This document shows, one piece after another, positions 16,668 through 34,808 of a DNA stretch of 64,000 nucleotides. Numbering within the stretch: the first letter of the stretch is position 1; each line of letters opens with the position of its first letter. Both the position numbers and the translations under genes were made by a program. The DNA is from Psychrobacter sp. 28M-43. Lineage in GTDB: Bacteria > Pseudomonadota > Gammaproteobacteria > Pseudomonadales > Moraxellaceae. The DNA lies in the NCBI RefSeq assembly GCF_014770435.1, contig NZ_CP061739.1, positions 2,294,001 through 2,358,000 on the forward strand, read 5' to 3'. The notes below the pieces were generated by a model that was not told the DNA's origin, searched no databases, and saw only the letters and a list, made by a program, of their open reading frames with translations.

Positions 16668-16701
16668 CTTAACATCTTCTTAACAGACCACTTGCTATGG
16701 T
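16668..16701 (+). promoter_or_regulatory. PmrA box and -10 of eptA
   Basis: CTTAAC-ATCTT-CTTAAC (16668-16684) is an exact PmrA-type direct repeat with a five-base spacer. Eleven bases on, TATGGT (16696-16701) fits a -10. The -10 overlaps the earliest ATG of the eptA frame at 16697, so translation must begin at the later ATG at 16742. Confidence 0.8.
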
Positions 16702-16741
16702 AAGGAATGACGTTTCCTACCATCTGTTGAGAAGTATCTGT

Positions 16742-18460
16742 ATGTCCATACCTCAAGTCATCAAGACCAATGTGCTAAAAATCAACGCACCCAACGCCAA
16801 TACAAAGACCAGCTACCTTAGTAAGCTCTATGATCGTGAGATAAGTCTCAGTTATCTTATTATTATCGTGGCTTTATATTTGGTAGTGACTGCAAATATT
16901 GCGTTCTTTGAGCAGGTGCTGGCTGTCTATCCATTTAGCAAAAACGTCGGATTTATCCTGTCTATTATTGGCTTGTTATTTGGACTGATGTGGCTGGTAT
17001 TACAGCTGCTGTGCTATCGCCCAATTGCCAAACCCGTACTAGCTACGTTGCTGATTATCGCTGCCATCTGTGGTTATTTTACTAGCGCCTATGGAACGAT
17101 ATTTGATACCAACATGTTGATTAACAGTCTGGAGACCGATCAAGCAGAGGCGATGGGATTGTTTGCCCCCAGCATTGTCATTCGTGTGCTGCTACTGGGC
17201 GTGTTGCCCGCCTTTATCATTAGCAAGATACGGTTGAAACGCTTTACTTGGCAACGCAGTATTCTACAAAAAACGGCAACCTTGATCCTATCTGTTGCGC
17301 TAATCGCCGTTTGTATTTTGCCGTTTGGTGACCAGTACGCCAGCTTCTTTCGTCAACATAAACAAGTTCGCTCTTATGCCAATCCGATCACGCCTATTTA
17401 CTCTACGATCAAACTTGGCGAAAACTATGTCGATGAGCTACGCCGTCCTGATAGTTTGACGCTGCATGCGACAGATGCAAAGCGTGTGGCACCTGCTGAT
17501 AGTGTGAGTGGCAGTGCTAAACCAAAACTAATGGTATTTGTGGTTGGCGAAACGGCTCGCGCCGATCATTTCGGTTTGAACGGTTATACACGCAATACCA
17601 CACCGCTGCTCTCAAAGCAGTCAGACCTTTATAGCTTTGAAGATGCTGTCTCCTGCGGAACCTCTACGGCCTACTCCGTACCTTGCATGTTTAGCTATGC
17701 AAATCGAACAGACTACGATATCGATACCGCTAAGTATAATGAAAACGTACTAGATACGCTCAGCAAGCAAGGGGTCAATGTCATTTGGCGCGACAATAAC
17801 TCTAGCTCAAAAGGCGTGGCTGATCGCGTTACTTTTGAAGACTATAAAACAGCTGACACAAACCCCAACTGTGATGTCGAATGCCGAGATATCGGTATGC
17901 TTGATGGTTTTGATGAACTGGTTAAATCAGGCAGCTCACAGAAAGAGATGCCGAAAGACACGCTTATTTTGTTACACCAAATGGGTAATCATGGTCCCGC
18001 TTATTATCAGCGCTATCCTAAAGAATTTGAAAAATATAACCCTGTCTGCATGACCAATGAGCTGTCTAAATGTGATGCTCAGTCTGTGATAAATGGTTAC
18101 GATAATGCGATTCGTTATACCGATTACTTTTTGAGTAATGTGATTGATACGCTAAAGCCTTATGAGCAAGATTATGATGTGGTAATGGTATATATTAGTG
18201 ATCATGGGGAGAGTTTGGGTGAAAATAATATCTACCTGCACGGCTTGCCCTATAAGTTCGCACCAGATGCACAAAAACACGTGCCTACGATAGTTTGGTC
18301 GCCCAATAGTAATAGTATCGATACTGAAAGTCTTTCTAGTATGGTCAATCAGCCAGTGTCACACGATTTTATTACGCCGACATTGCTGAACTTTTTTAGT
18401 ATTACGACCGATGAGGTGAAAGGTGCACCAACCTTTTTTAAACTGGGTCATTCTAATTGA
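16742..18460 (+). CDS. eptA: Lipid A phosphoethanolamine transferase EptA/PmrC
   Basis: Inner-membrane enzyme that moves phosphoethanolamine from phosphatidylethanolamine to lipid A, lowering the negative charge and giving polymyxin resistance; the same family as MCR. From ATG 16742 it has 572 residues with five N-terminal membrane helices (about 36-56, 67-90, 97-116, 145-161, 177-196). The periplasmic sulfatase-like domain has VVGETARADHFGLNGY with Thr271 as the phospho-acceptor, SCGTSTAYSVPCMFS, and the metal ligands in SDHGESLGE and LPY after HG. Cysteines for the disulfides are present. It is followed by a PmrAB-like pair, as in the Acinetobacter pmrCAB operon. Confidence 0.93.
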   Translation: MSIPQVIKTNVLKINAPNANTKTSYLSKLYDREISLSYLIIIVALYLVVTANIAFFEQVLAVYPFSKNVGFILSIIGLLFGLMWLVLQLLCYRPIAKPVLATLLIIAAICGYFTSAYGTIFDTNMLINSLETDQAEAMGLFAPSIVIRVLLLGVLPAFIISKIRLKRFTWQRSILQKTATLILSVALIAVCILPFGDQYASFFRQHKQVRSYANPITPIYSTIKLGENYVDELRRPDSLTLHATDAKRVAPADSVSGSAKPKLMVFVVGETARADHFGLNGYTRNTTPLLSKQSDLYSFEDAVSCGTSTAYSVPCMFSYANRTDYDIDTAKYNENVLDTLSKQGVNVIWRDNNSSSKGVADRVTFEDYKTADTNPNCDVECRDIGMLDGFDELVKSGSSQKEMPKDTLILLHQMGNHGPAYYQRYPKEFEKYNPVCMTNELSKCDAQSVINGYDNAIRYTDYFLSNVIDTLKPYEQDYDVVMVYISDHGESLGENNIYLHGLPYKFAPDAQKHVPTIVWSPNSNSIDTESLSSMVNQPVSHDFITPTLLNFFSITTDEVKGAPTFFKLGHSN

Positions 18461-18565
18461 TTGGCTAAAAGTGAGTTATTCCAAAGAATTTATTAAAACA
18501 GCTCACTACATTCGTTTTATATCGTTCAGTCCTTTTAGGTAACCACTATTTTTTAGGTCAGCATC

Positions 18566-19261
18566 ATGTACAAAATACTCGTTATTGAAGACAACCCCGA
18601 TATCGTGGCCAATATTTATGCTTTTTTTGAGCCAAAAGGGTTTGAGTTGGACAACGCGCATAACGGCTATAGCGGGCTAACACTTGCCTCAAACAATCGC
18701 TATGATGTAATCCTGCTAGATGTAATGCTACCAGGTATGGATGGCACGCAGCTGTGCAAAAAGCTCAGAGAAGAGTTGCATGATAAAACGCCCGTGCTAA
18801 TGCTCACGGCTCGCGATACAATCTTGGATAAAGTCGCTGGTTTTGATAGCGGCGCTGATGATTATTTGGTCAAGCCGTTTTCGTTGGTTGAGTTGGAATG
18901 TCGTATCAAAGCGCTCATACGTCGCCATGAAGACGATCATTTTGCCCACAGTATTGCCGTCGGAGCGTTGTCCTTAAACAATAGTGAGCATACTATTATG
19001 CGTGAGGGACAATCACTGAAGCTTACTCCCACTGGCTTTAAAATATTGCACATCCTAATGAGTGCAGCGCCTAGAGTCGTCAGTAAAACTGAGATTGAAG
19101 AAAAAGTGTGGGGGCTAGACATACCCAGTAGTGATGCACTGCGCACCCATATGCATAGCGTGCGCGCACAGGTTGATAAGCCATTTGACATACCCATGAT
19201 AGTCACAGTACCTGGCGTAGGTTACCAAGTTGTTGACCCTAATAAATCAGCAAACGCGTAG
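18566..19261 (+). CDS. pmrA: PmrA-like OmpR-family response regulator
   Basis: 231 residues. The receiver domain has acidic EDN at residues 8-10, the phospho-acceptor Asp52 in LLDVMLPGMDG, the TARD motif and Lys102 in YLVKPFS. The C-terminal winged helix ends with VVSKTEIEEKVWGLDIPSSD and RTHMHSVRAQVDKPFD, then VPGVGYQVV. It lies between eptA and the kinase, the order of pmrCAB. Its name is inferred from this order and from the PmrA boxes upstream of eptA and dgkA, since response regulators of this class look alike. Confidence 0.85.
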   Translation: MYKILVIEDNPDIVANIYAFFEPKGFELDNAHNGYSGLTLASNNRYDVILLDVMLPGMDGTQLCKKLREELHDKTPVLMLTARDTILDKVAGFDSGADDYLVKPFSLVELECRIKALIRRHEDDHFAHSIAVGALSLNNSEHTIMREGQSLKLTPTGFKILHILMSAAPRVVSKTEIEEKVWGLDIPSSDALRTHMHSVRAQVDKPFDIPMIVTVPGVGYQVVDPNKSANA

Positions 19262-19388
19262 TCATGATTGCAGTATGAATTGAATAAACCTTATCCAATT
19301 TACTAATCGACTTACCGTACCATATTTCTCGCTCTATTATATATAGCCCTGTTATATATCGCCTTATTCTATTAGGTTGTCCTACGCC

Positions 19389-20729
19389 ATGCTCAATATA
19401 GACTCGATAGCCAATAAGTTCAGACTGTCTTACTTCATATTCGCGTTATTACTGTGCGCAGCTTTTGTCAGTATTTTCTTGTACGCAGAGAGCCGAATAG
19501 AGCAAGATTTGGTCAAGGCTCGCCTATTGCAGCAGCTAGAGCTTAGTCAAGAAAAATACGGTGACCAGCCTATTTATGTCGCTGACCCAGGTATCAAGAT
19601 TTATCGCTATGATAAAGCACCTGCTAGTTTGCAAGCGATAGCCAATGACACGGTGCAAGAGACTTCTGTCACTGTTAATAAGGCCTCTGGAGCAGGTCAT
19701 GCCAACCTGCATCTTTTTGCCTATACCCAAGACGGTCAAACCTATATTTTGACTTACCTAGAAAACACCGAAATGGTGATGGGAAATTACCCAGTCTTGG
19801 CGATATTTGAGCACCTAGAAGACATTTTTGCAGATACGCTAAAAGTAGCCGTGATTCTAAGCTTACTTATCGCCGCTATTTTTTCCCAATTGTCCTCTAA
19901 ACAAATCATCAAGCCTTTACTAGATTTGAAGCGAGCCGTCGAGACCGACCATCATAACTTAAGCGACTTGACACACTTACCATCTGAGGTTGGTGTCTTG
20001 GCACGGGCTATCGATGAGAAAAACCACAAGTTAGAACAGTACCTCAAGCGCGAGCAACTGTTTACTGGTGATGTCAGCCACGAGTTACGCACGCCATTGA
20101 CTATTATCATGGGGGCTTCCGAGGTGTTGGCCTCGCAACTAGACGCTGACAGCCACTTAAATGAGTTTACCAATCGTATTAGCACTACTGCCAAAGAAAC
20201 TTCTGAGATTATCACCGCTCTGCTTCTACTATCGCGCGCGCCTGAAAAGTTAGATGCACCGCAAACCTCTATTAACAGTATCGCTTTAGCGGAAATGCAG
20301 CGCCTAAAATACTTACTGCGGTATAAGTCTGTTACTTGTCAGGTAATTGCTGAGCAGGAATACAGCGCTTACGTACGCCCCGAACTCCTAAAAATGGCAT
20401 TGGGCAACCTCATAAAAAATGCGTTTCAATATACCGATGATGGCGAAGTAACCATTACTATCGATGACGAAAAAATCATGGTGACTGATACTGGCTTAGG
20501 TATTCCTGAAGCGATGATGCCTCTATTATATGAACGGTTTGAGCGATTAGAGTCTCAGTATAAAGACGAGCAAACAATCCTGTTGTCAGAGCATGAGACA
20601 AAACATAAGGTTGAAGGATCAGGTCTAGGGCTCAGTATCGTCCAGCGTATCATGTCGCATATGGGTTGGCAGCTCACTCACCAAGCCAATCGCTCAGGTG
20701 GTAGCACCTTTAGTATTTATTATAAGTAA
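19389..20729 (+). CDS. pmrB: PmrB-like sensor histidine kinase
   Basis: 446 residues. A first membrane helix (about 12-30) and a second (about 156-172) enclose a periplasmic sensor of about 120 residues. A HAMP-like linker is followed by the H-box GDVSHELRTPLTIIMG, the N-box GNLIKNAFQYTDDGEV, G1 VTDTGLGIPEAM and G2 GSGLGLSIVQRIM. The start at ATG 19389 is preferred over the TTG at 19377. The sensor region lacks a visible ExxE iron motif of the Salmonella type, so the stimulus is unknown. It is the partner of the regulator 127 bases upstream. Confidence 0.85.
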   Translation: MLNIDSIANKFRLSYFIFALLLCAAFVSIFLYAESRIEQDLVKARLLQQLELSQEKYGDQPIYVADPGIKIYRYDKAPASLQAIANDTVQETSVTVNKASGAGHANLHLFAYTQDGQTYILTYLENTEMVMGNYPVLAIFEHLEDIFADTLKVAVILSLLIAAIFSQLSSKQIIKPLLDLKRAVETDHHNLSDLTHLPSEVGVLARAIDEKNHKLEQYLKREQLFTGDVSHELRTPLTIIMGASEVLASQLDADSHLNEFTNRISTTAKETSEIITALLLLSRAPEKLDAPQTSINSIALAEMQRLKYLLRYKSVTCQVIAEQEYSAYVRPELLKMALGNLIKNAFQYTDDGEVTITIDDEKIMVTDTGLGIPEAMMPLLYERFERLESQYKDEQTILLSEHETKHKVEGSGLGLSIVQRIMSHMGWQLTHQANRSGGSTFSIYYK

Positions 20730-20758
20730 CCTTGTGATAGTCCAAAGATATCTTCACC

Positions 20759-20783
20759 TCCCAATCATAATTGCTGATTGGGA
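20759..20783. repeat. Hairpin after pmrB
   Basis: TCCCAATCA and TGATTGGGA pair perfectly around a seven-base loop, 29 bases past the kinase stop. No T-run follows, so it may be a processing or weak termination site. Confidence 0.5.
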
Positions 20784-20834
20784 AATGAAAAATTTAAACA
20801 CCCATTACGCTTTAATCTCATCCATCTATTTCCT

Positions 20835-20868
20835 CTTAACGTTTTCTTAACCTCTCCCGTCTTATACT
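20835..20868 (+). promoter_or_regulatory. PmrA box and -10 of dgkA
   Basis: CTTAAC-GTTTT-CTTAAC (20835-20851) is followed eleven bases later by TATACT (20863-20868), the same geometry as upstream of eptA. The dgkA ATG is 39 bases further on. Confidence 0.85.
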
Positions 20869-20907
20869 CAGGCTATCTTAATTTTAATAGACCGTTAAGA
20901 ACGCCCT

Positions 20908-21381
20908 ATGAAGCAAATTACTCATACCAACCTTGTAGACCCATCAGCCGAGCATAGTTCTATCAATCAGACGACGCATGATAATGCACTCGCAGCTGAT
21001 AGCTTTGCAAGTCATGCCAAAGGTAAAACGGGAATCCTTCGCATTATAAAAGCCACTGGCTACTCTATAGATGGCTTTAAAGCCGCATATAAATTGGAAG
21101 CGGCTTTTAGACAAGTTTTGTGGCTCAATCTTATACTGCTAGCTGCTGTCATCGTTATGCCTTTTGCGCTTGGTATAAAAATGATGCTGGTCGTCGCTTC
21201 TTTTTTATCTTTGATTGTTGAGCTAGTCAACACAGGTATCGAAGCTTGCGTTGACCATACTTCAACCGCCAAACACCCGCTCGCAAAAATCGCAAAAGAT
21301 GTCGGCTCTGCGGCACAGTTCTTAGCGTTAAGTTTGTTAATGGTTTTATGGGTAATGGCGTTGTCTGCTCTACTTTATTAA
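20908..21381 (+). CDS. dgkA: Diacylglycerol kinase DgkA
   Basis: Small membrane kinase that phosphorylates diacylglycerol to phosphatidic acid, so the lipid is recycled. EptA releases diacylglycerol from phosphatidylethanolamine, which explains its control by the same box. The core starts near residue 44 (RIIKATGYSIDGFKAAYKLE AAFRQ region) and has three membrane helices. The catalytic signature is SLIVELVNTGIEACVDH. At 157 residues it has about 40 extra N-terminal residues over the usual 120, polar and probably unstructured. Confidence 0.92.
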   Translation: MKQITHTNLVDPSAEHSSINQTTHDNALAADSFASHAKGKTGILRIIKATGYSIDGFKAAYKLEAAFRQVLWLNLILLAAVIVMPFALGIKMMLVVASFLSLIVELVNTGIEACVDHTSTAKHPLAKIAKDVGSAAQFLALSLLMVLWVMALSALLY

Positions 21382-21509
21382 AGTCTGATCTACTTTATTA
21401 AAGCATGGCGAGCACTCGCCTAACAGCACAATGCGCTGCTTAGATAAACAATAAAACGAAGGTCGTATTAAGAACTATCAACATCGCATATACGTTATCA
21501 GGTGTAGTC

Positions 21510-22334
21510 ATGACTTCAGAAAACAACGCAGTGACTTGGGACTGGCTAAAACTACTGTGCGTGACCATCATGGCCACCTTAGTTTTTGAGCATAGCCAAT
21601 TAGATGTACGCATCAGTGAGCTTTTTTATAACAATGGTCACTGGCTACTCGAAAAGGGCGCGCAGCCTTATGCATTTATCTTTTATGATTTGCCCAAAGT
21701 ATTATTGTTTCTATTGGCTGTCTATCTCATAGCGGTTTTAATCATCAAGTACAGACAATCAAGGCTTAATGCTACTGCCCTAAGCTGCAATAAGCTAAAT
21801 CGCAGTAAGCTCAGTCATAATAACCTTGATCAGTTTCTGCTTCCTTTACCTATGCGCGAGATAAGCTACCTACTGATTATATTGGCGATTGTGCCTACTA
21901 CTATTGCCACGCTCAAAGGCGTCACTCATATTAGCTGCCCAAATGATTTGGTTATTTTTAATGGGGATTTGCCCTACCTCAATCTTTGGCAAAACATCGT
22001 AGCAGCAACGCCTGCCAGATGCTTCCCAGCGGCTCACGCCAGCGCAGGATTTTCTTTATATGGACTGGCTTTTTTACCAACATTAAGAAAATACCGCTAT
22101 CAGATAGTCATATCAGTAACTATTTTGGGCTGGACAATGGGACTGTATAAGATGCTGTTTGGCGATCATTTCTTTAGCCATACATTGGTCTCAATGCTGC
22201 TGTCATTAACCATAGCCTGTGCGCTCGCAGCCCTATTTTTCAAACAATCGATTAAGAGTAAGGCACACAGCACCAACGACGATAAAAGACATATTGGTCT
22301 TAGCTTGTCTAGCATTGAGCACTCTAATACTTAA
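21510..22334 (+). CDS. PAP2-family membrane phosphatase
   Basis: 274 residues with about six membrane helices. The PAP2 motifs are present in a divergent form: KGVTHISCP (motif 1), CFPAAHASAG with the catalytic histidine (motif 2), and MLFGDHFFSHTL (motif 3). Similar genes follow mcr-1 and other EptA genes and belong to the group that includes LpxT and PgpB-like phosphatases. It is 128 bases after dgkA with no clear terminator between, so it may share the PmrA-controlled transcript. It might act on lipid phosphates or lipid A; the substrate is inferred. Confidence 0.88.
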   Translation: MTSENNAVTWDWLKLLCVTIMATLVFEHSQLDVRISELFYNNGHWLLEKGAQPYAFIFYDLPKVLLFLLAVYLIAVLIIKYRQSRLNATALSCNKLNRSKLSHNNLDQFLLPLPMREISYLLIILAIVPTTIATLKGVTHISCPNDLVIFNGDLPYLNLWQNIVAATPARCFPAAHASAGFSLYGLAFLPTLRKYRYQIVISVTILGWTMGLYKMLFGDHFFSHTLVSMLLSLTIACALAALFFKQSIKSKAHSTNDDKRHIGLSLSSIEHSNT

Positions 22335-22551: not shown

Positions 22552-23166
22552 ATGCGCTTGTTGTCTATTAGGTCAAAACCGTCGCATATCTATTCTTTTT
22601 TGACCATTTTATTATTGCTCGTAGGCACTGCAAGTAGCAGTCAAGCTGCCAGTTACGCTATTAATCCTGCCAGCACTCATATCCGATTTGCTATCGAACA
22701 CTTTAAGAGTTCAGCCACGACTGGTGGTTTTTATAATATCAAAGGTCAATTGCAATACGATCCAAACTTAAGATCAGGCGAAATCTCATTGATCATACCG
22801 ATAAACTCCTTAAATACGGGCAACCCTTCTTTTAATAATAGCCTAACTGGGCCTGAATTTTTTGATATGCAGAGGTTTCCTTCAGCGCAGTTTGAATCGA
22901 CAAAATGGCATTTTAATCAAGATAAAAAAAGGCCGCAGGTCTCACAAATAGATGGCCAATTGACACTGCATGGCGAGACCCACCCAATTAGCCTAACCGC
23001 GACTAAGTTTAATTGTTATCTAAATACGAGCATCAAAAAAGATGTTTGTGGGGGTGAGTTCACTGCTACGATTAATCGTACAAAATGGAATATCAATAAA
23101 TTCGCTTGGTTCGGACTGACCAAAAACCTTGACTTAAGTATCAAGGTCGAAGCCGCCAGACAGTAG
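22552..23166 (+). CDS. YceI-family periplasmic protein
   Basis: 204 residues with a signal peptide: basic start, hydrophobic segment around residues 13-27, then cleavage probably near SSQAAS. The mature part is a YceI beta-barrel (YAINPASTHIRFAIEHFKSS at its start, DMQRFPSAQFES and LTLHGETHPISLTATKFNC). YceI proteins bind isoprenoid or amphiphilic ligands and often accompany cytochromes. AAAGGAATGTAGCT precedes the ATG. It is the first gene of a four-gene set with two cytochromes c and an amine oxidase, 73 bases before the next start. Confidence 0.9.
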   Translation: MRLLSIRSKPSHIYSFLTILLLLVGTASSSQAASYAINPASTHIRFAIEHFKSSATTGGFYNIKGQLQYDPNLRSGEISLIIPINSLNTGNPSFNNSLTGPEFFDMQRFPSAQFESTKWHFNQDKKRPQVSQIDGQLTLHGETHPISLTATKFNCYLNTSIKKDVCGGEFTATINRTKWNINKFAWFGLTKNLDLSIKVEAARQ

Positions 23167-23239
23167 TATTTTTAATGTTTCGCCACTGTCTTAATAGATA
23201 CGGGTAGTGATTTGCAGAAAGCTTAAAAAGGAATTAGAC

Positions 23240-24646
23240 ATGATTCATCGATATTATAAGGACATTGTGAAGCCACTTTCTGCAGTCATGCCAGCATTGT
23301 CATTTTCAGTGGTCATAGGATTTGGCGCCTCTACCGTAGCGATGGCCGCTGGCGTCAGTTTCCAAGAAAATACTTTGCCTAGCAGCACAAGCTTACCCAA
23401 TATCAGCCCCACCAATAGTGCGCTTGCCAATCGCGGTGCTTACGTGGCTCGTACAGCCGACTGTATGGCCTGTCACCGTGAAAATTATAGTGGCGGCGTG
23501 CCGATTGAGACGCCCGTTGGCAATATTTACTCAACCAATATCACACCCTCTAAGAAATACGGTATAGGTAATTATACTGAAGCTGATTTTAAAAAAGCCT
23601 TGCAAAAAGGTCGCACACCAAATCATCAGCTTTATCCTGCTATGCCTTACCCGTCTTATCATGGCATGACAGATGAGGATATCAGCGCCTTGTTCGCGTA
23701 CTTTCAGACCGTTCCTATCGTAGACAAACCACCTGAAAAAACCACTCATTTGCCTTTCCCGTTAAATATTCGTAGCTTAATGCTGGCATGGAATGTCATC
23801 AATGTGCCCTCTACTGAAAATCGCTCAGGGCTAACTGAAACTCAGCAGCGCGGTGAATATTTGGTCAATAACTTAGAGCACTGCGGTACCTGTCACACCC
23901 CGCGCAACTTAACCCAAGGCCTAGATAAAGACCACTATTTATCCGGCGCACCACTTGGCAAATGGTTTGCACCGAATATCACCCCTGACAACGACACAGG
24001 TATCGGCCTTTGGAGCGAAGTGGATATCGTAAATTATCTACGTACAGGAACGCTTGATAAGCGCGCTTACGCGGGCGGGCCAATGGCAGAAGCCGTGGCG
24101 CACAGTATGCGCTACCTAACCGACGAAGACCTTATAGCGATGGCTGACTATTTAAAAGTCGTCCCAGCCATTAAGACCGATGACTATTTGATACCTGTCA
24201 ATATTTCTCGTCTACCGCAACCAGTCAGCGATTCTATTACTTACGACTTACTTGAGCAAAAAGACTATCTGGCACATGCCAAAACCAATACTGTCAGCAG
24301 TGCCAACAATAGCGGTCTGAACAGCAACACGCCAAAAGAGTTGTATCTGACACATTGCGCTAGCTGTCATGGGGTCGACGGTTACGCCCAGCCCGATGCA
24401 CGCTACGCCTCCATCGTTGGTTTGAGTAGTATTCGCCGCGTAAAACCTGATGCGCTCGTTGGCGTAATTGCCTTTGGCGCGAAAGGTGCCTTTAACACAG
24501 CACCAAAAATGCCTGGTTTTTCAGAAGACTTAAGCCCTGCGCAGATTGCTAATATTACTAACTACGTACGAGTCAAATTTGGTGGTTTATCAAATAGCGA
24601 TGTTAGTGCCGCTGAAGTCACGCGCGTGATAAAAGAAAAAAGTTAG
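23240..24646 (+). CDS. Triheme cytochrome c (alcohol dehydrogenase cytochrome-subunit type)
   Basis: 468 residues with a signal peptide ending near VAMAAG and three CxxCH heme sites: CMACH at 75-79, CGTCH at 215-219 and CASCH at 373-377. The arrangement is that of AdhB-like cytochrome subunits that receive electrons from periplasmic dehydrogenases and pass them to ubiquinone or an oxidase. AAGGAATTAGAC before the ATG at 23240 decides the start over an earlier frame extension at 23207. It sits directly before a Tat-exported flavin amine oxidase with no PQQ or alcohol dehydrogenase gene near, so it probably serves that flavoprotein. Confidence 0.9.
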   Translation: MIHRYYKDIVKPLSAVMPALSFSVVIGFGASTVAMAAGVSFQENTLPSSTSLPNISPTNSALANRGAYVARTADCMACHRENYSGGVPIETPVGNIYSTNITPSKKYGIGNYTEADFKKALQKGRTPNHQLYPAMPYPSYHGMTDEDISALFAYFQTVPIVDKPPEKTTHLPFPLNIRSLMLAWNVINVPSTENRSGLTETQQRGEYLVNNLEHCGTCHTPRNLTQGLDKDHYLSGAPLGKWFAPNITPDNDTGIGLWSEVDIVNYLRTGTLDKRAYAGGPMAEAVAHSMRYLTDEDLIAMADYLKVVPAIKTDDYLIPVNISRLPQPVSDSITYDLLEQKDYLAHAKTNTVSSANNSGLNSNTPKELYLTHCASCHGVDGYAQPDARYASIVGLSSIRRVKPDALVGVIAFGAKGAFNTAPKMPGFSEDLSPAQIANITNYVRVKFGGLSNSDVSAAEVTRVIKEKS

Positions 24647-24716
24647 CTATAAAGAATAGGCATAAATTAGTATTTTCAATAACACCGCAAAGACTCAGCA
24701 CGATAAGGATAATCCT

Positions 24717-26318
24717 ATGAATGACCTGCTCCAATCTCCCACGCGACGACAACTGCTCTCAATGATAGGCAAGACGGCAGGCGCGACCGCGATGTATCAA
24801 GCGATGGCCACGTTGGGGTTTGCATCTGAGTCGAGCTTCAAAGAAGAGATGAATCTGAAAGGCGCACCGGCTGGTGCCAGCATCCTGATTTTGGGTGCAG
24901 GATTGGGTGGTCTAACTGCCGCCTATGAGCTACGCAAAGCGGGCTACAAAGTGACCGTGCTTGAGTACCAAAATCGTGGCGGTGGCCGCAGCTGGACACT
25001 CAACAGCGGTGACAAATATACTGAACTTGGCGGTGCTGAGGTCACTTGCGACTTTAAAAAAGGCAATTACTTCAATGGCGGACCATGGCGACTGCCCATC
25101 CACCACTACGCGGTCTTTCATTACTGCAAAAAGTTCGGTGTGGCATTGCAGCCTTTTATCCAGACCAATGATCGCGCTTATCTGCATCGTACCAATCACT
25201 TCGATGGTGCGCCGCAGCGCTTGGGCGAAGTACAAAGCGATATTCGTGGCTATGTGTCAGAACTGCTGTCCAAAGCCGTCAATACAGGCAGTCTCGATAG
25301 TACGGTCAATAAAGAGGACAAAGAAAAATTACTCGAAGGTCTCAAGGGCTGGGGCGTGCTAGATAACAACTATCGCTATGTCAAAAGCCATGAAACGGGC
25401 AAGCATCGTGGCTATAGTGTATATCCCGGTGGTGGTCTGATGCCTGAGGCCAAACCATCAACACCCATACCGATGGACAAATTATTAGACTCAGGTATGT
25501 GGTCGGATATTTATAGCAACTATACCGTGCATGTGCATCAACCAACGATGTTTCAGCCTGTCGGCGGTATGGGGAAAATCGGTGATGCGTTCACACGTGA
25601 ATGTCGAGATATGATTACCTTCAATGCCAAAGTCATCAAAATCAATCAAGACGAAACTGGGGTTACCGTTGACTATGTCGATAGCAACAGCCCTGACGGT
25701 ATAGCCAAAACAGTGCGCGCAGGTTGGTGCATTTGTACTATCCCCTTGTCAATATTGACGCAGATTGATATCAATGTCTCCGCGCCAATGAAACAAGCGA
25801 TGGCAGCCGTTCCTTATGACAGCTCGTATAAAGTAGGTTTGGAGTTCAAACGAAGGTTTTGGGAAGAGGATGAATGGATCTATGGCGGTATCACTTATAC
25901 CGATATGCCTATCTCACAAATCTCCTACCCGTCACAAGATATGTTTAGCTCAGGCTCAGGTGTGCTACTTGGCGCGTATGGGTTTGGAGAGGCGTCGTAC
26001 AAGTTTAACTCGTTGACTCCTAAAGAACGTATCAATGCCGCGCTCGCCTATGGCAAACAGATTCATCCGCAATATACCAAAGAGTTCCGTTCGGGCACGT
26101 CTGTCGCATGGCACCGTATCCCTTGGTCGCTTGGCTGCTACGGTATCTGGAGCGAGTCAAGTCGTGAGCAGTATTATCAAACATTATGCGAGATAGACCA
26201 CCGGATTGTGTTAGCAGGTGAGCATTGCTCACATATTCCTGCATGGCAAGAGGGCGCGATATTATCCGGTATGGATGCTGCCAAACGCTTACATCAAAAG
26301 GCCAAGAAACTTGGATAG
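24717..26318 (+). CDS. Tat-exported flavin monoamine oxidase/dehydrogenase
   Basis: 533 residues. An N-terminal twin-arginine signal (TRRQLLSMIGKTAGATA) shows export of the folded FAD protein to the periplasm. The FAD site is ILGAGLGGLTAAYELRKAGY (glycines 60, 62, 65), with YQNRGGGRSWTLN as the second flavin motif. The C-terminal FAD block is VLAGEHCSHIPAWQEGAI. It belongs to the amine oxidase family that includes NicA2; NicA2 hands electrons to a cytochrome c and not to oxygen. Cytochrome c genes lie on both sides here, so a dehydrogenase role is likely. The amine substrate is unknown. Confidence 0.9.
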   Translation: MNDLLQSPTRRQLLSMIGKTAGATAMYQAMATLGFASESSFKEEMNLKGAPAGASILILGAGLGGLTAAYELRKAGYKVTVLEYQNRGGGRSWTLNSGDKYTELGGAEVTCDFKKGNYFNGGPWRLPIHHYAVFHYCKKFGVALQPFIQTNDRAYLHRTNHFDGAPQRLGEVQSDIRGYVSELLSKAVNTGSLDSTVNKEDKEKLLEGLKGWGVLDNNYRYVKSHETGKHRGYSVYPGGGLMPEAKPSTPIPMDKLLDSGMWSDIYSNYTVHVHQPTMFQPVGGMGKIGDAFTRECRDMITFNAKVIKINQDETGVTVDYVDSNSPDGIAKTVRAGWCICTIPLSILTQIDINVSAPMKQAMAAVPYDSSYKVGLEFKRRFWEEDEWIYGGITYTDMPISQISYPSQDMFSSGSGVLLGAYGFGEASYKFNSLTPKERINAALAYGKQIHPQYTKEFRSGTSVAWHRIPWSLGCYGIWSESSREQYYQTLCEIDHRIVLAGEHCSHIPAWQEGAILSGMDAAKRLHQKAKKLG

Positions 26319-26411
26319 CTAAAGCTAACTTTTGAGTAATAAGCTTTGAATAATAACTCTGCCTTTCAAGCAAGAATGATAACAATGAGACTAAGCACAT
26401 TAGGAACAATT

Positions 26412-27101
26412 ATGAACGTAGTGACATCAAACCCGATAAAATCATCTAGCTCGCTCAGCTCGAGCAAGGCAATAATGATGCTCATGGTCGGTGGGTCGAT
26501 AGCGTTAACAACGTTGTCAGGCTGTAGTCAGTATAAGGCAAAAAACGCAGCCACTATCGCCAATCCACAAACAGCGCCCATGCTATTTAACAATAGTTTC
26601 GACAATCAGGCCAGTCGCAATCAGGGCGCATGGGGCGGCGTATATGTGTCCAAAGCAGAGTTGGCTGAGCCTACTACCAATATAGTCGATGTGCGCTCAA
26701 TACCAAACATGAGTGAAGATACCAACATGCAGCAGTGGCTCGCAAAATTTGAAGGAAGCATACAAGGCAAGACGGGATTCCTTACCACCAATGGCAAAAA
26801 GCTCTATGATGACTCCTGTGCAGGTTGCCATATGCAAAAAGGTGAAGGTGCGCAAGGCGCAGGCTACTATCCACCGCTAGCCAATAACAGCAAGATGCAA
26901 TCGAAATACTATATCATCAGTGTGTTAATCAATGGTCTACGCGGCATGCCATCATTCCACCGCATGATGAGCGATGAGCAAATAACAGCCGTCACACAAT
27001 ACGTACATAGCGATCTAAATAGCTTCACTGATATAGTGACCACTGCTAATGTCGCACAGCTACGCCATGATTTTCCACCAGGATCAGACCCTAGTGAGTG
27101 A
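26412..27101 (+). CDS. Lipoprotein cytochrome c
   Basis: 229 residues from ATG 26412, chosen for AGGA six bases upstream; the frame is open further left but without such a site. A lipoprotein signal ends in LTTLSGC, with Cys38 as the lipidated residue. One heme site, CAGCH (136-140), lies in a class I cytochrome c domain, with KGEGAQGAGYYPPLANNSK after it and a methionine in GLRGMPSFHRMMSDEQ as likely ligand. It is 93 bases after the amine oxidase and is a probable electron carrier anchored in a membrane. Confidence 0.88.
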   Translation: MNVVTSNPIKSSSSLSSSKAIMMLMVGGSIALTTLSGCSQYKAKNAATIANPQTAPMLFNNSFDNQASRNQGAWGGVYVSKAELAEPTTNIVDVRSIPNMSEDTNMQQWLAKFEGSIQGKTGFLTTNGKKLYDDSCAGCHMQKGEGAQGAGYYPPLANNSKMQSKYYIISVLINGLRGMPSFHRMMSDEQITAVTQYVHSDLNSFTDIVTTANVAQLRHDFPPGSDPSE

Positions 27102-28973: not shown

Positions 28974-29062
28974 AACTTATACAACCTTTTTTAATATTTT
29001 TTGCTATTTACTAAGAACGACATAGTCTGTTTACGACGGATTAGTTAACTGTTTGCGATGAA

Positions 29063-30823
29063 TTAGTTAATCGTAATCTCTTCCGTAGGATAGCGATAAT
29101 TACGTTGACGCATATTTTTTAGTAGCGCGATAAATATCGTCAGCATACTGACGCGGCCAACGAACATAATGACCGAAACCACTATTTTACTAAAATCTGA
29201 TAAGTCTGCTGTCAGGTTTAAACTTAAGCCCACCGTGCTATAAGCTGAGAAGCACTCAAACACTACTTTAATCAAATCAAGCTCTGGCTGATCATAACTG
29301 ATGAGTGTCACGCCCGTACCGATGACCAGTAGCGACAGCCACATAATAGAAAACGCGCGGCGTACAGAAATCTCAGCAATCTCCCGTTTAAACACCTCTA
29401 TCTTGGTCTGTCCACGAGCTAGGCTCAATGTATTCAATAACGCAATCGCAAAGGTACTGGTCTTGATACCACCACCTGTCGAGTTTGGTGACGCACCAAT
29501 CCACATCAGAAATATCGTCAGCATAACAGTCGGAAATGTAAGTTCACCCATATCAATCACATTGAACCCTGCCGTACGCGGGGTAGCCGCCGTAAAGAAC
29601 CCTGTTACTAGCTTGCCAAGGAAGCTGGTATGGTCAGCGAGCACATTATTATATTCAAAGATCATCACCCCAATCAGACCAACTAGCAATAATGCGCCTG
29701 TGGTAATCAAAGTAATGCGGCTATTGATATTAAGTAACCAAGGCTGATAAATATAGCGTTGGTCATGACGATTTATCAGCCGCTGAGCACGATAACGTAA
29801 ATACCTAAGCACATTGACCACGATGGTAAAACCCATACCACCGAAGATAAATGTCATCGCCAGAATCAGCTGTAGCGAATAATTAAAACGTAGCGAATCA
29901 TCGTACAAGCCAGCACTAAAGGTAGAAAACCCAGCATTACAAAAAGCAGAAATCGCATGAAAGACTGAAAAAAATAACTGCTCAGACCAATCCATATTGG
30001 GTATGTCATAAATACTGATATAAATCAGCGCAGCCGCTACCGCCTCGACAGCAAATGTGACGTATAAGATAGACTTGAGTGTCGACACCACATCACCCAT
30101 ACCGCGCATGTAAGACATCTCGCTGATGCTGGCTTGTGTCTCATAGCTGACACCACCCTTAAAAAAATAACTAAAATAGGTCACAAAGGTCAAAATACCT
30201 AAGCCGCCAATTTGTATCAGACCCATAATAATGACTTGGCCAAAAGTCGTAAAATAGGTGGCAGTATCCACTACGATAAGCCCTGTCACACAAACCGCAC
30301 TGGTCGCGGTAAAAAGCGCATCAACAAAAGACAGCGGCTGCGTCGTCGCATTGGGCATCATCAATAGCAATGCACCAACCAGCACCACGACTAAAAAGCT
30401 TAGAATAAAAAACTGCGCAGGATGTAGAAAGGTACGATTGAGATTAAAATTATGATCGGAGAGTTCGCGGACGAAGGTGACAAACACCGCTATCTTTATC
30501 GCGACAAAGCCATCAACGGCAGCAGATAGGCCCGAACGTACTAAGTCCGTAAAATGCGCGGTCAATAAAATGATAATGGCAATGCTAGTCAGTGCGTCAA
30601 AGACGGCGACTTTATTAAGCGTTAATGGCTTTTTGGTATAGATGTAACGACCAGCGGTCACCATAAAACTAAGGAAGATGATGACCAAATAGAAAATATG
30701 AAATACTTGCTGGAGCCACGTCGGTAGTGTAAAACCACTATCCAACAAGGCAATCGCTACCCCGATGACACTAATGAGAATCGTAAAATTGTTTAATAAT
30801 CGATAACGCGTGGCTGCATTCAT
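29063..30823 (-). CDS. ktrB: KtrB/TrkH-type potassium transporter
   Basis: Membrane protein of 586 residues, counted from ATG at 30823 (a TTG at 30844 adds seven). The four pore-loop regions of the TrkH/KtrB fold can be seen: TATSAVCVTGLIVVDTATYF, HAISAFCNAGFSTFSAGLYD, TAATPRTAGFNVIDMGELTF and CFSAYSTVGLSLNLTADLSD, each with its conserved glycine. It carries about 110 extra N-terminal residues with three or four helices before the first pore motif. Works with KtrA for potassium uptake. Confidence 0.92.
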   Translation of the reverse strand: MNAATRYRLLNNFTILISVIGVAIALLDSGFTLPTWLQQVFHIFYLVIIFLSFMVTAGRYIYTKKPLTLNKVAVFDALTSIAIIILLTAHFTDLVRSGLSAAVDGFVAIKIAVFVTFVRELSDHNFNLNRTFLHPAQFFILSFLVVVLVGALLLMMPNATTQPLSFVDALFTATSAVCVTGLIVVDTATYFTTFGQVIIMGLIQIGGLGILTFVTYFSYFFKGGVSYETQASISEMSYMRGMGDVVSTLKSILYVTFAVEAVAAALIYISIYDIPNMDWSEQLFFSVFHAISAFCNAGFSTFSAGLYDDSLRFNYSLQLILAMTFIFGGMGFTIVVNVLRYLRYRAQRLINRHDQRYIYQPWLLNINSRITLITTGALLLVGLIGVMIFEYNNVLADHTSFLGKLVTGFFTAATPRTAGFNVIDMGELTFPTVMLTIFLMWIGASPNSTGGGIKTSTFAIALLNTLSLARGQTKIEVFKREIAEISVRRAFSIMWLSLLVIGTGVTLISYDQPELDLIKVVFECFSAYSTVGLSLNLTADLSDFSKIVVSVIMFVGRVSMLTIFIALLKNMRQRNYRYPTEEITIN

Positions 30824-31032
30824 AGCCTGAGTCCATGACAACAATAACCACGATACTTATACTCCTTTTTTATCATATCCACAAAAAGTGATTTAAGTTA
30901 ATCGTAACCAATTATTGAGTCATAGTAGCTATTGACAAGTTAGATACGGATAATCCGAGCGAGATAAGAAGTGCCCATTAGGCAGTAACGGCTTTAATAA
31001 CTCTATAGTTTAATGCTATCGCTTATACACAT

Positions 31033-31974
31033 TTATGAGACTTCTTCTTTTACTTTTGCTATTTTTACGCCGCCCCATGTCACTAATGCCACGCCAATCG
31101 CAATCAAAGTAGCGCCTAAAAATAAACCTTCTGGTGGCTGCTCTCCTTGCAAAAAAATAGCGACGGGCACGCCGATAATGGCTCCTACTGCGCCTAACAA
31201 ACTCAGTAACACAGGCCCACCTGTCTTTTGCAATAAAAATAACAGTAAAAACTGTCCAGCAAATACGCATGCTTGTATAGCTATCATGCTTAGCGGCAAC
31301 CAATCCTCTAAAGATACAGCAATAGAGAAATCTGACATCATACTAAACAAACCTAGCAGCAGCGCTGCCGCCATCAACATACCTGGAGCGAGTGCGCCAG
31401 AAGATGCATTATCAGGCCAGCGTAATGTCCTATATATATTGCCCATAGCGAGTAGCACTGGACCACAAAGCGCGATTAAAATCCAAAACACACTAGAATC
31501 TGGCGCAGAGAATTTATGTACGGCTAATGCCCCTGCTCCAATGAGTGCTGCGATGACTCCAAGCGCACGGACAATATAAAATTGCTCTATACGTAGTATC
31601 AGCGCGCCAAGATACGTTAGCAGTGGCGGCAATGAGAGGATTAAGGCGACGAAACCTGCGCCCACATGAGGAATGGCAGAAAATAATAATAAGTTAGCGG
31701 CCGCGACACTGACAAGCGCCGCGACAAAGTAATACTCTAAGCTGCGCGCATTAAGAGGAGGGAGTTCTTTTCTGATGAGCGCTATCATAAATAAAGTAAC
31801 AGCAGCACCAGTAATCGACCAGAACAAAAACCCTAATGGGGTCAGACCGACATCGATAGCGTACTTTGCCACATTGGTCGAGATACCAGTGAGTGCGCCG
31901 CCTGCCAGTAGACAAAAAAAAGGCACCAGCCAAGTGGTCTTTTGAGTACTGGTTTGTTTGAGCGAATCATTCAT
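31033..31974 (-). CDS. EamA/DMT-family transporter
   Basis: 313 residues with ten hydrophobic helices arranged as two EamA repeats, starting FFCLLAGGALTGISTNVAKY. The second repeat runs from about residue 160 (ILIALCGPVLLAMGNIYRTL). Start 31974 has AGGAT five bases upstream; the frame extends to 32010. The family exports amino acids and other metabolites; the substrate here is unknown. An amine oxidase gene precedes it by 77 bases on the same strand, so they may be expressed together. Confidence 0.88.
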   Translation of the reverse strand: MNDSLKQTSTQKTTWLVPFFCLLAGGALTGISTNVAKYAIDVGLTPLGFLFWSITGAAVTLFMIALIRKELPPLNARSLEYYFVAALVSVAAANLLLFSAIPHVGAGFVALILSLPPLLTYLGALILRIEQFYIVRALGVIAALIGAGALAVHKFSAPDSSVFWILIALCGPVLLAMGNIYRTLRWPDNASSGALAPGMLMAAALLLGLFSMMSDFSIAVSLEDWLPLSMIAIQACVFAGQFLLLFLLQKTGGPVLLSLLGAVGAIIGVPVAIFLQGEQPPEGLFLGATLIAIGVALVTWGGVKIAKVKEEVS

Positions 31975-32051
31975 CGAATATCCTATTGGATGACGAATTT
32001 TCTTAGTCATGTTTGATGGCTTTTGTATAGCTTACAACAACACCCTAATAG

Positions 32052-33203
32052 CTACTGGCAAAAAATGTCAGCAGGTAAGCTTTGTATAGCGACGGTTGCT
32101 GCATCCATTGCCCCAGCGACATAGCCAGGGAACTGCGCTGACCACTCACTACCACAACCTGTTAGACAGTCTTGCCACACGCCTTTCTTTGGCTTGGACG
32201 GCGGTGCTACTGCATGCTGACCGTTACCGCTAGCATCAGTGGGCATCGCTGTTAATGGATCCTGTGCCCAGTCCTTAAGATATTCAGCTTTTGGAGTACT
32301 CGCCTGCTCACCGAATAGTCGCACTAACTGCGCACGGCAATGTTCTTTTAGCACTGTATCAGAGACACTCTGTCGTACTTGAGCGGGAACACCAAAGAAA
32401 CCAAACAATGCCCCATCGCCCTCTAGCGTAGAGGCATCATTTATCTCAGTGAGCGGCCCTATCGCACTGCGCGCGGCACCCGAGAGACCAGCATCTCGCC
32501 AAAATGGTGACTCATAAACAGCGACGTATTTGGCATGGGGAGCCATCCAAGTGGCTGTCTCGCGCCACTGTTCACTTAAGTCTTGCGGTAGCGCTGGCTG
32601 AAATACTATCCGACCTTCTACCAATCGAGGCGGTAACGCAAGTAGCACATGCTGTGCTCGGAACGTCGTCACATGTCTGGTCACATGCCCAGAGCTATCT
32701 TCACTCTGTACTTCGATATGTTGAGGCGTCTTGTTCAATTGCCTTACGGTTTGACCGGTCATAATACAACTAGCATCTAGGCGAGCATATAGCGCCTCAA
32801 TCAAAGCGGCCATACCACCGACTAGACGCATAGAAGGTGGTTCGCTTTTACAACCTTGCATACGCACAGGTGGCTGGTTGGCAGCGCGCTCAACCATCAT
32901 ATCGCCTTCTTCGAACTGAGCGAAACGTGGTAAACCTAATGCCTCGATAAGACTGCTCAGCTGCGGCTGATACTCTGGCCAAAACCACGACGGCCCTAAA
33001 TCAAAGCCGTCGTTTGATTTCTCATGATTAATACTTTGACTGCTAGCATTCTGAGCTACTGATGATTTGGCAACAGTGATACGCCCGCCCAATCTATCAC
33101 GAGCCTCTATCAATATATAATCGATGCCTTTTTGTTCTAATAAAAAGGCGGCATACAATCCGCTTAATCCGCCACCGACGATCACCACTGGTACGTTTTG
33201 CAT
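32052..33203 (-). CDS. FAD-dependent amine oxidase/oxidoreductase
   Basis: 383 residues without a signal peptide. VPVVIVGGGLSGLYAAFLLE is the FAD dinucleotide site and YILIEARDRLGGRI the following motif. The C-terminal end VAGAMDAATVAIQSLPADI fits the last FAD helix, though the usual GE-motif before it is weak (GCGSEWSAQFPGYVAGA). It resembles the monoamine-oxidase branch, and unlike the protein at 24717 it is cytoplasmic. Substrate unknown. A run of low-complexity Ser/Asn follows the FAD motif at about residue 45-65. Confidence 0.85.
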   Translation of the reverse strand: MQNVPVVIVGGGLSGLYAAFLLEQKGIDYILIEARDRLGGRITVAKSSVAQNASSQSINHEKSNDGFDLGPSWFWPEYQPQLSSLIEALGLPRFAQFEEGDMMVERAANQPPVRMQGCKSEPPSMRLVGGMAALIEALYARLDASCIMTGQTVRQLNKTPQHIEVQSEDSSGHVTRHVTTFRAQHVLLALPPRLVEGRIVFQPALPQDLSEQWRETATWMAPHAKYVAVYESPFWRDAGLSGAARSAIGPLTEINDASTLEGDGALFGFFGVPAQVRQSVSDTVLKEHCRAQLVRLFGEQASTPKAEYLKDWAQDPLTAMPTDASGNGQHAVAPPSKPKKGVWQDCLTGCGSEWSAQFPGYVAGAMDAATVAIQSLPADIFCQ

Positions 33204-33271
33204 ATCAAATACGTCCTATCTCATCAAGTACATTTAATCAGGACTACTCGATCAAAATTGTTCAAGTGAAA

Positions 33272-33694
33272 CTACTCACCCAACAACTTAGTAAGCATCT
33301 CATCAATCTCAACCTTGAACTCTTTGTCTTCGATCTTATTGGCTGTGATTTTGGCATTTTGCAGACTTTGGATAGCAGCTTCTTTTTCACCTGTCTCAAG
33401 CTGTAGCACCGCCATAGAAAAAGCAATCGATGACATATGATCTTTTGAGTTAATGGCAGTAGCTTTGGCCAGTGCTTTGTCATAAATTACCAATGCTGCA
33501 TCCAAATCTTCTGTGAAGTCAGCGAGCGTTTCCCATTGTTCTGGGTGGTCTTTGTCAGTGCCTTCATTATCGGTACAAATGGCTTTTAGTTCAGCATAAA
33601 ACGCATCAAATTTTTCTTGATTACCGATACGGTCAGCCTCTAGTAACTCTTCTGCCAATTTATAAATAGATTTATATATTTTGGTATTGATCAT
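33272..33694 (-). CDS. Small helical (TPR-like) protein of unknown function
   Basis: 140 residues, acidic and all-helical by composition. Segments such as ALVIYDKALAKATAINSKDH and FSMAVLQLETGEKEAAIQSL resemble two TPR units. No signal peptide or membrane helix. AAAAGG lies nine bases before the ATG. I do not recognise a named family. It lies between the amine oxidase and a MITE-like element. Confidence 0.75.
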   Translation of the reverse strand: MINTKIYKSIYKLAEELLEADRIGNQEKFDAFYAELKAICTDNEGTDKDHPEQWETLADFTEDLDAALVIYDKALAKATAINSKDHMSSIAFSMAVLQLETGEKEAAIQSLQNAKITANKIEDKEFKVEIDEMLTKLLGE

Positions 33695-33754
33695 TGCTTA
33701 CAACCTTTTATTGACTTGGAGTATGGATTATTTGGTTAGGATTATAACGTAATT

Positions 33755-33929
33755 CTAGGGCGTGTCCTCATTTTAAAAATGGTGATAAAAATGAGATAAA
33801 TTGCAGTCAAACAAGGAAAATAGCGTAGATAATATCGGGATATTAACCAGCTATTTAACGATGTTTGGCAAAATTTAGCCATTTTTAGCCCGTTTAGATA
33901 TGATCAATTGAATTGAGGACACGCCCTAG
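33755..33929. mobile_element. MITE-like element, 175 bp
   Basis: CTAGGGCGTGTCCTCA (33755-33770) and TGAGGACACGCCCTAG (33914-33929) form perfect 16-bp terminal inverted repeats, with no ORF between. The ends fall on CTAG, fitting TA or CTAG target duplication as in IS427/IS5-group or Tc1-like elements. The interior is AT-rich. The remaining spacer (33930-34135) has nothing else I can support. Confidence 0.8.
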
Positions 33930-34135
33930 CGGCTCAGATGTTTGCTACAGAGAAGAACACGATATTTATGTGGCTGTTATTAATATTACTATGAACCTTA
34001 TCAAGGTTACTATTCATACTATAGTTGATTCAATTTAAAAGTAGTACAAGACAACCGAGTGCAAGTTATATATTAGTATGCTTAGCGAGGATGACGATGA
34101 TGTAGCGGATTTATATAGACTTGACTATATTAGGG

Positions 34136-34624
34136 TTACAACTCGCGCCAGTGCAGCCACAGTCGCGTATCCAGCTCAAATTGATGATACTCAGGCTCCA
34201 TATGGCAGCATAATTGATAAAACGCTTTGTTATGCTCATGCTCTTTGAAATGGGCAAGCTCGTGCACCACTATCATGCGCAAAAACTCTGGCGGCGCGTC
34301 TTTAAATAGGCTGGCTACCGTAATACTATTGTGCGATTTGAGCTTACTGCCCTGTACGCGTGATTGCGTCGTATGGATACCCAGTGCATGTTTTAAAACT
34401 TTCAATTTACTGCTATAGCTGACATTTGATAGCTGACCAATCTTACGCATGTATTGGGTTTTTATCTCATTTATATACTGATAGAGCGCTTTGTCGCTTT
34501 GGATTTGATGCTGAGTTGGGTACTTTTTTTCCAGATACTCGCCCAACCTACCATCATTGATAAGCTGAGCAGCTTGAGTTTGAATCTGTTCTGAGTAATG
34601 CGCTATGTACTTTAATTTGGTCAC
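34136..34624 (-). CDS. YgjP-type (DUF45) metallopeptidase-like protein
   Basis: 162 residues with the zincin motif VVHELAHFKEHEHNKAFYQL, the HExxH variant HELAH with a third ligand in the following histidines, as in YgjP/WLM proteins. Strong homologues have about 160-240 residues. The start is GTG at 34624, chosen because AAGGAT lies six bases upstream. The N-terminal half is helical. The physiological substrate is unknown. Monocistronic by position. Confidence 0.87.
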   Translation of the reverse strand: MTKLKYIAHYSEQIQTQAAQLINDGRLGEYLEKKYPTQHQIQSDKALYQYINEIKTQYMRKIGQLSNVSYSSKLKVLKHALGIHTTQSRVQGSKLKSHNSITVASLFKDAPPEFLRMIVVHELAHFKEHEHNKAFYQLCCHMEPEYHQFELDTRLWLHWREL

Positions 34625-34772
34625 AAATGTATCCTTTGCTAATACGTTGCAGCGTATCAGTCGATCAATTTAATCTTAGGGAATTTTACCTTATATTTGC
34701 GGTGTTTGTTTGCCACTTATTTGGGATATATCCTCAATTCAAACGACAGTTATTTATAAATAGTTATCCATA

Positions 34773-34808
34773 AAAAAACCCCATAAGCTGCGTTCAACTT
34801 ATGGGGGC
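34773..34808 (-). terminator. Terminator after betT
   Basis: CCCCATAAG and CTTATGGGG form the stem, with a run of A on the plus strand (T on the transcribed minus strand) at 34772-34778. It lies 38 bases past the betT stop. Confidence 0.85.

Follow-up and report, generated by a model that had tools for sequence, protein, structure and literature searches.

A Psychrobacter operon that probably encodes a periplasmic, cytochrome c-linked L-amino acid dehydrogenase

Introduction

Two bodies of published work come closest to the system considered here, a four-gene operon on the plus strand of Psychrobacter sp. 28M-43 in which the gene of an exported flavoprotein lies between those of two c-type cytochromes (positions 22552 to 27101 of a 64,000-nucleotide stretch of contig NZ_CP061739.1, hereafter the window; the genome is one 3.1 Mb contig). 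The first concerns the L-amino acid oxidase (LAAO) gene lao of the plant endophyte Gluconacetobacter diazotrophicus PAL5. In the sections of that article on which we draw, a Tn5 insertion in lao abolished auxin formation and cut indolic compounds by 95%, lao, a cytochrome c gene (cccA) and ridA were found to form one cluster, and the cytochrome was proposed as a helper of the LAAO; cytochrome c maturation mutants, according to earlier work cited there, produce 5% of the auxin (PMC5053998). The second concerns flavoproteins related to NicA2, for which the main text of one study states that a twin-arginine translocation (Tat) signal together with an adjoining cytochrome c gene predicts use of cytochrome c over O2, and that the lysine at flavin N5 does not tell oxidases from dehydrogenases (PMC12224317).

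The window operon resembles lao-cccA-ridA in its 533-aa Tat-type LAAO-family protein and its adjoining cytochrome c gene, and the order of the two, a lao relative and then the cytochrome c gene, is the same. It differs in that RidA is missing, that a triheme cytochrome of the alcohol dehydrogenase/fructose dehydrogenase (ADH/FDH) type and a YceI-family protein are added, and that the monoheme cytochrome is a lipoprotein. The lao protein itself was compared through two primers, the printed sequences of which translate to YPSHGYF (codons 404–410) and QVIHPNY (codons 447–453) of a 533-aa protein (PMC5053998); the window flavoprotein, likewise of 533 aa, reads YPSQDMF and KQIHPQY at the corresponding positions, and the two are taken to be of one family. 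With NicA2, Pnao-CycN and the related clades 1–3, as these are described in the portions of the two reports used here, the window protein shares a Tat-exported flavin amine oxidase fold and an adjoining cytochrome c gene (PMC12224317, PMC9396064), whereas the cytochromes of the NicA2-centred set are monoheme or diheme c4 proteins, against a triheme in the window (PMC12224317). Word searches found no mention of Psychrobacter or of an L-amino acid oxidase in the main text of PMC12224317, nor of RidA, YceI or a triheme.

The core of the system has been published before, part of it as the lao-cccA-ridA operon and part as the cytochrome-using flavin amine dehydrogenases. An earlier, sequence-only reading of the window had suggested that the gene set could be undescribed, a word that cannot be kept for the FAD (flavin adenine dinucleotide)–cytochrome c–RidA form (PMC5053998, in the sections cited) or for cytochrome use within the superfamily (PMC12224317, main text) and that holds for the triheme variant within the papers searched. 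Literature searches for an LAAO with a triheme cytochrome, for YceI with an amine oxidase and cytochrome c, and for a periplasmic cytochrome c-linked L-amino acid dehydrogenase gave no match, and those on Psychrobacter LAAOs and on flavin amine oxidase–cytochrome operons gave nothing on point by title, PMC7511310 among the Psychrobacter papers proving unrelated. As far as these searches go, the triheme in the place of RidA and the link between YceI and a missing membrane anchor are new. We consider it likely that the operon encodes a periplasmic, cytochrome c-linked L-amino acid dehydrogenase; protein family, export signals (by motif), haem motifs and conserved gene order were computed directly, and from these we infer, with the help of a structure model, the substrate, the acceptor and the order of electron transfer.

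Family and fold of the flavoprotein

The flavoprotein gene (24717..26318, +; PF01593, E 5.9e-53) encodes a predicted Tat-exported, FAD-containing dehydrogenase of the LAAO family, with its closest named relatives in Psychrobacter at 97% identity. Its best solved match is the LAAO of Rhodococcus opacus (RoLAAO; 2jae, E 2.6e-86, 294 bits), and other LAAOs come next; monoamine oxidase B (MAO-B) and putrescine oxidase, which rather than NicA2 itself were the amine enzymes compared by alignment, reach at most 67 bits among the best 60 of 104 matches. A structure model built from 13 sequences has a mean predicted local distance difference test score (pLDDT) of 75.8, falling below 50 at residues 1–37, 269–276, 384–388 and 467–475. 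Superposed on 2jb1 and 2jae, it gives template modelling (TM) scores of 0.83–0.84 by query and 0.93 by target, with 35% identity to RoLAAO. Among the best 50 structural matches LAAOs hold ranks 1–44 and the first monoamine oxidase appears at rank 45. LAAOs thus head both sets of matches (best 60 of 104 by sequence, best 50 by structure), and the closest solved relative is in neither an amine or nicotine enzyme of the NicA2 type.

Residue conservation was counted over the 113 distinct relatives that reach 45% identity. R125, the equivalent of RoLAAO Arg84, is arginine in all 113, Y421 (Tyr371) is tyrosine in 110 and phenylalanine in 3, and both K372 (Lys323) and W510 (Trp467) are invariant; the RoLAAO numbers rest on an offset of one between the chain numbering and that of the literature. 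Arg84 and Tyr371 of RoLAAO are, we assume, the residues that bind the substrate carboxylate. By sequence and modelled fold, then, the flavoprotein belongs with the LAAOs and not with the amine enzymes of the NicA2/MAO type, and a NicA2- or MAO-like amine dehydrogenase as the nearest family was rejected on sequence scores, fold ranking and the conserved carboxylate residues. A dehydrogenase of polyamines or aromatic amines, as the sequence-only reading had it, does not agree with this grouping or with the retained arginine and tyrosine; its label of flavin amine oxidase stands as the Pfam name and misleads as to the closest solved relatives, which are L-amino acid oxidases.

The part of the pocket facing the substrate side chain differs from that of RoLAAO, since Trp426 and Gln228 are replaced by Tyr475 and His274. 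Tyr475 is invariant in relatives of the triheme type (56/56) and variable in those of the RidA type, with tyrosine in 14 of 43.

The N-terminus carries a Tat-type motif, TRRQLL, the two arginines of which are conserved in 112 and 113 of the 113 relatives. A simple pattern recovered such a motif in 121 of 128 relatives, and the seven misses comprise five with RR by eye, one with KR and one ambiguous case. Both features that serve as the predictor in the main text of PMC12224317, the Tat motif (here by pattern only) and the adjoining cytochrome c gene, are therefore present.

Conserved neighbourhood of the flavoprotein and the monoheme cytochrome

Directly 3' of the flavoprotein gene lies that of a monoheme cytochrome c lipoprotein (26412..27101, +; PF13442/PF00034), with one CxxCH motif (CAGCH), a lipobox (LSGC) and a likely methionine ligand in the sequence GMP. 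The lipobox is found by pattern in 48 of 54 monoheme open reading frames (ORFs) of Psychrobacter and near kin, and two more have LPGC.

Homologues of the flavoprotein occur in 28 of 57 genomes of relatives (E 1e-40). At E 1e-50 the family-wide search gave 34 positive genomes out of 149 and the phylum-wide search 27 out of 398; all three totals include the genome of the window itself. Homologues also lie on 37 plasmid records. Gene neighbourhoods were compared in the top 80 of 581 confirmed flavoprotein loci (the best-80 set, 33 of them from Psychrobacter), in a second set of 42 flavoproteins in 40 genome stretches picked from the relative, family and phylum searches, and on 6 of the 37 plasmid records. 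Seven loci are common to the two genomic sets, which after removal of duplicates give 115 distinct neighbourhoods.

In the best-80 set a monoheme cytochrome c gene stands just 3' of the flavoprotein at every locus (80/80), as against 13 of 467 other long ORFs of these loci that precede a CxxCH ORF. A triheme gene lies 5' in 42, a RidA gene nearby on the same strand in 31, neither in 8, and both together in one, Halomonas halodenitrificans. The second set has the 3' cytochrome in 37 of 42, the triheme in 20, RidA in 17 and the last two never together; of the five loci without a 3' cytochrome, four hold distant flavoproteins (at most 37% identity) and one has a cytochrome gene 5' instead. The plasmid loci have the cytochrome in six of six, the triheme in one and RidA in three. 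Over the 115 distinct neighbourhoods the counts are 110 for the cytochrome, 55 for the triheme, 48 for RidA, 1 for triheme plus RidA and 17 for YceI, and in the 47 best-80 loci outside Psychrobacter they are 47 for the cytochrome, 9 for the triheme, 31 for RidA and none for YceI.

Because the monoheme gene follows the flavoprotein at 80 of 80 loci, far above the control, cytochrome c is, judged from gene order, very probably the electron acceptor. The monoheme appears to be the constant partner, since the 38 of 80 loci that are without the triheme still carry it. The earlier proposal of a wiring to c-type cytochromes is well supported. Of the four-gene order, the conservation of which it named as a check, the flavoprotein–monoheme pair is widely kept and YceI is not.

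The FAD–cytochrome–RidA form was also seen in three metagenome bins of Campylobacteraceae, at 57–58% identity, which suggests either cross-phylum transfer or mis-binning.

The triheme cytochrome and RidA

The triheme gene (23240..24646, +) encodes an exported cytochrome c of the family of cytochrome subunits of alcohol, fructose and glucose dehydrogenases (ADH/FDH/GDH). Its CxxCH motifs stand at residues 75, 215 and 373, and the homology extends over three haem domains. The best solved match is the cytochrome subunit of fructose dehydrogenase (7w2j_C, E 3.6e-81), and the matches to 7w2j, 8gy2 and 8hdd, subunits of fructose, alcohol and glucose dehydrogenases, run from E 3.6e-81 to 8e-72. The C-terminal membrane helix is missing, and the match to the solved chains stops near their residue 413–436, leaving their tails uncovered. 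Subunits of this family relay electrons from their dehydrogenase to ubiquinone. The partner here is an LAAO-type flavoprotein and not a glucose-methanol-choline (GMC) or pyrroloquinoline quinone (PQQ) enzyme.

The sequence-only reading had noted a triheme without its customary partner, and a search of the genome at E 1e-8 agrees, its sole match being the protein itself. The idea that the triheme is an orphan subunit of a PQQ alcohol dehydrogenase encoded elsewhere was rejected; the genome holds two PF13360 matches, which by eye resemble BamB (405 aa) and a membrane quinoprotein dehydrogenase (840 aa). Neither of the two GMC enzymes in the window adjoins the operon, and one of them (37184–38896) lies beside a BCCT transporter.

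The triheme occupies the place where relatives carry RidA, an imine deaminase, and the two occur together in 1 of the best 80 loci. In a quickly built tree with 51 representatives, less than 80% identical to each other and including 8 with the triheme, the triheme association amounts to one change (support 93, not starred), while the RidA label requires 12; a single loss of RidA is not borne out by that cost. At the window operon no RidA-family match was found, so the third member of lao-cccA-ridA is absent. Four RidA-family genes are present in the genome, one of which (L198; G000:C1:311939–312259) lies away from the operon and has a signal peptide by eye; its product could serve an imino acid formed in the periplasm. 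A signal-peptide-like N-terminus was likewise present in two of three plasmid RidA proteins examined.

Two loci depart from the usual arrangement. At one (L080) two complete triheme–FAD–monoheme modules stand in tandem, one triheme being anchored and the other unanchored, and at the other (L124) two overlapping ORFs stand in for a single triheme gene, while both the flavoprotein gene and the monoheme gene are, by their length, whole.

Proposed mechanism and alternatives

We propose that the Tat-exported flavoprotein would hold an L-alpha-amino acid by its carboxylate, through R125 and Y421, with transfer of a hydride to FAD. Oxidation would yield an imino acid that breaks down to 2-oxo acid and ammonia, either spontaneously or helped by the apparently exported RidA encoded outside the operon, and FADH2 would give up its electrons one at a time to the monoheme lipoprotein and not to O2. 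The triheme may take the electrons over from the monoheme and deliver them to quinone or to a terminal oxidase. Elsewhere the module adjoins ctaD (Roseinatronobacter, triheme type) or coxB-ctaD (Dinoroseobacter, without triheme), which fits an electron end point at a terminal oxidase, and the RidA gene adjoining 31 of the best 80 loci was counted in favor of an amino acid substrate.

Several observations weigh against a cytochrome c-linked L-amino acid dehydrogenase. RidA is absent from the window operon, RoLAAO as the closest protein of solved structure goes by the name of oxidase, and the N5 lysine (K372) is retained. The neighbourhood support comes from the best 80 of 581 loci, 33 of them from Psychrobacter, and the kinetics from other clades. 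The substrate range of RoLAAO is not transferable, given the replacement of Trp426 and Gln228 and the poor model at 269–276 and 467–475. The Tat-plus-cytochrome predictor is also imperfect, because, in the main text of the study that describes it, a B. anthina enzyme with both features used O2 as well as cytochrome, and in clade 1 the reaction between each flavoprotein and its own cytochrome was modest (PMC12224317).

The alternative that survives best changes the order of the carriers only. FDH/ADH-type triheme subunits accept electrons straight from their dehydrogenase, and it is possible, though we think it unlikely, that the triheme is the primary acceptor here, as in fructose dehydrogenase, with the monoheme lipoprotein as the shuttle from there to an oxidase. 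The type of the triheme and its single-step association with the flavoprotein on the tree speak for this order; the 38 of 80 loci that have a monoheme and no triheme speak against it. An improbable alternative is a true periplasmic oxidase that would form H2O2 from L-amino acids, the cytochromes removing the peroxide or serving some other process. The name of the closest solved relatives and K372 in 113 of 113 relatives speak for it, and one flavin amine oxidase with Tat signal and adjoining cytochrome did also use O2 (PMC12224317, main text). However, the monoheme gene is adjoining at all of the best 80 loci, Pfam puts the cytochromes in cytochrome c and not peroxidase families, with methionine ligand candidates present, and according to the same text a Tat signal with an adjoining cytochrome mostly accompanied poor O2 use (PMC12224317). 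A NicA2-like dehydrogenase of carboxylate-free amines (polyamines, aromatic amines, alkaloids) would share superfamily, Tat signal and neighbouring cytochrome with NicA2, Pnao and CycN as these are described in the parts of the reports used (PMC9396064, PMC12224317), but it is very improbable given the scores of MAO-B and putrescine oxidase against that of RoLAAO, the ranking of LAAO-type structures above monoamine and putrescine oxidases among the best 50, the conserved carboxylate clamp and the RidA partner of relatives.

Should the operon indeed encode an L-amino acid dehydrogenase linked to cytochrome c, the finding that 'amine oxidases' can act as respiratory dehydrogenases would extend to the LAAO branch as it occurs across many Pseudomonadota and in some bins of Campylobacteraceae. 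Where a gene labelled 'flavin monoamine oxidase family protein' adjoins one for cytochrome c, its product might then be an energy-saving, peroxide-avoiding periplasmic amino acid dehydrogenase, and a reason would be at hand for the presence of a cytochrome gene next to lao, through which a plant endophyte forms auxin. In the triheme variant, the cytochrome that feeds quinone in acetic acid bacteria would be coupled to a flavoenzyme for amino acids, with a possible use in amino acid electrodes.

YceI and the unanchored triheme

The first gene of the operon (22552..23166, +) encodes an exported protein of the YceI family (PF04264, E 1.3e-32; signal peptide by eye), which carries the Pfam domain and scores 74 bits against the NCBIfam equivalog, below the cut-off of 232. 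The fold is one that binds isoprenoids, and its solved relatives carry the names YceI and polyisoprenoid-binding protein. A linked YceI gene occurs at 17 loci (12 in the best-80 set and 5 more), all in one Psychrobacter clade that includes the window, with flavoproteins 88–97% identical to that of the window.

At all 17 the triheme stops soon after the third haem domain. In the window 96 residues follow the third haem motif, without an anchoring region, and the triheme of L121 ends even earlier; the class comprises 18 ORFs from 17 loci, the triheme of L124 being split in two. Triheme ORFs without linked YceI extend 131–152 residues past the third motif and have a hydrophobic helix, with one exception at 93 residues; the helix is present in 45 of 46 such ORFs, or 38 of 39 after removal of duplicate loci. 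From their sequences, the hydrophobic helix and basic tail of these trihemes are read as a single inner-membrane anchor. The one triheme with neither YceI nor anchor is the second tandem copy of L080, in genome G002. Upstream sequence is shorter than 2.3 kb in 5 of the 122 genomic rows, where a YceI gene could go unnoticed. The link between YceI and the missing anchor counts as one evolutionary event, since all 17 loci sit in one clade.

The YceI gene is broken or fragmentary in 3 of the 17 loci (L081, L118, L121), aligns over just 185 of 204 residues in 2 others (L117, L120), and has a stop within the matched stretch in two more genomes (G009, G003). Relatives of YceI also occur off the operon and in genomes free of the flavoprotein (e.g. 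G001, G013, G032), and 98 of the 115 distinct neighbourhoods are without YceI. A core role was rejected on distribution (17/115) and decay (3/17 clearly broken), which make the protein at best an accessory, added late in one Psychrobacter clade; the part that the earlier reading gave it, as a quinone or lipid carrier, is correspondingly weak. More speculatively, and to our minds a long shot, the triheme may have been freed from the inner membrane, with YceI as a soluble ubiquinone carrier that re-oxidises it, giving a protein-ferried path from L-amino acids to quinone. The idea is based on the distinct loci: 17 with YceI and no anchor, 38 with anchor and no linked YceI, and 1 with neither.

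Gene layout and other genes in the window

The sequence-only reading was right that the four genes share one strand with short gaps, which measure 73, 70 and 93 nt from stop to start with the preferred starts. For the triheme, ATG 23240 is preferred over GTG 23207 on a Shine-Dalgarno-like AAGGA, and for the monoheme ATG 26412 is likelier than TTG 26346 (both by eye). Promoter-like sites (8, against a shuffle mean of 9.1) and terminator-like sites (5, against 4.8) are at the shuffle level, and no plus-strand terminator-like site was found within the intergenic gaps of the operon. The next two genes 3' of the operon lie on the opposite strand. Directly 5' (16697–22334) is a lipid A modification cluster in one row, with an EptA/B-type phosphoethanolamine transferase, a diacylglycerol kinase and a PAP2 lipid A phosphatase, together with a response regulator and a sensor kinase (both by eye).

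Farther off, a second PF01593 flavoprotein of 383 aa is encoded at 32052–33203 (−), and no CxxCH ORF above 75 aa was found around it in 29001–36900. A flavin reductase, a RidA-family gene (about 5728–6066) and an isochorismatase-type hydrolase cluster at 5003–6897 (−), an arrangement that we take to resemble the pyrimidine (Rut) degradation cluster. The BCCT transporter, the two GMC enzymes and an aldehyde dehydrogenase, at 34846–38896 and 47556–51385, presumably belong to choline/betaine metabolism.

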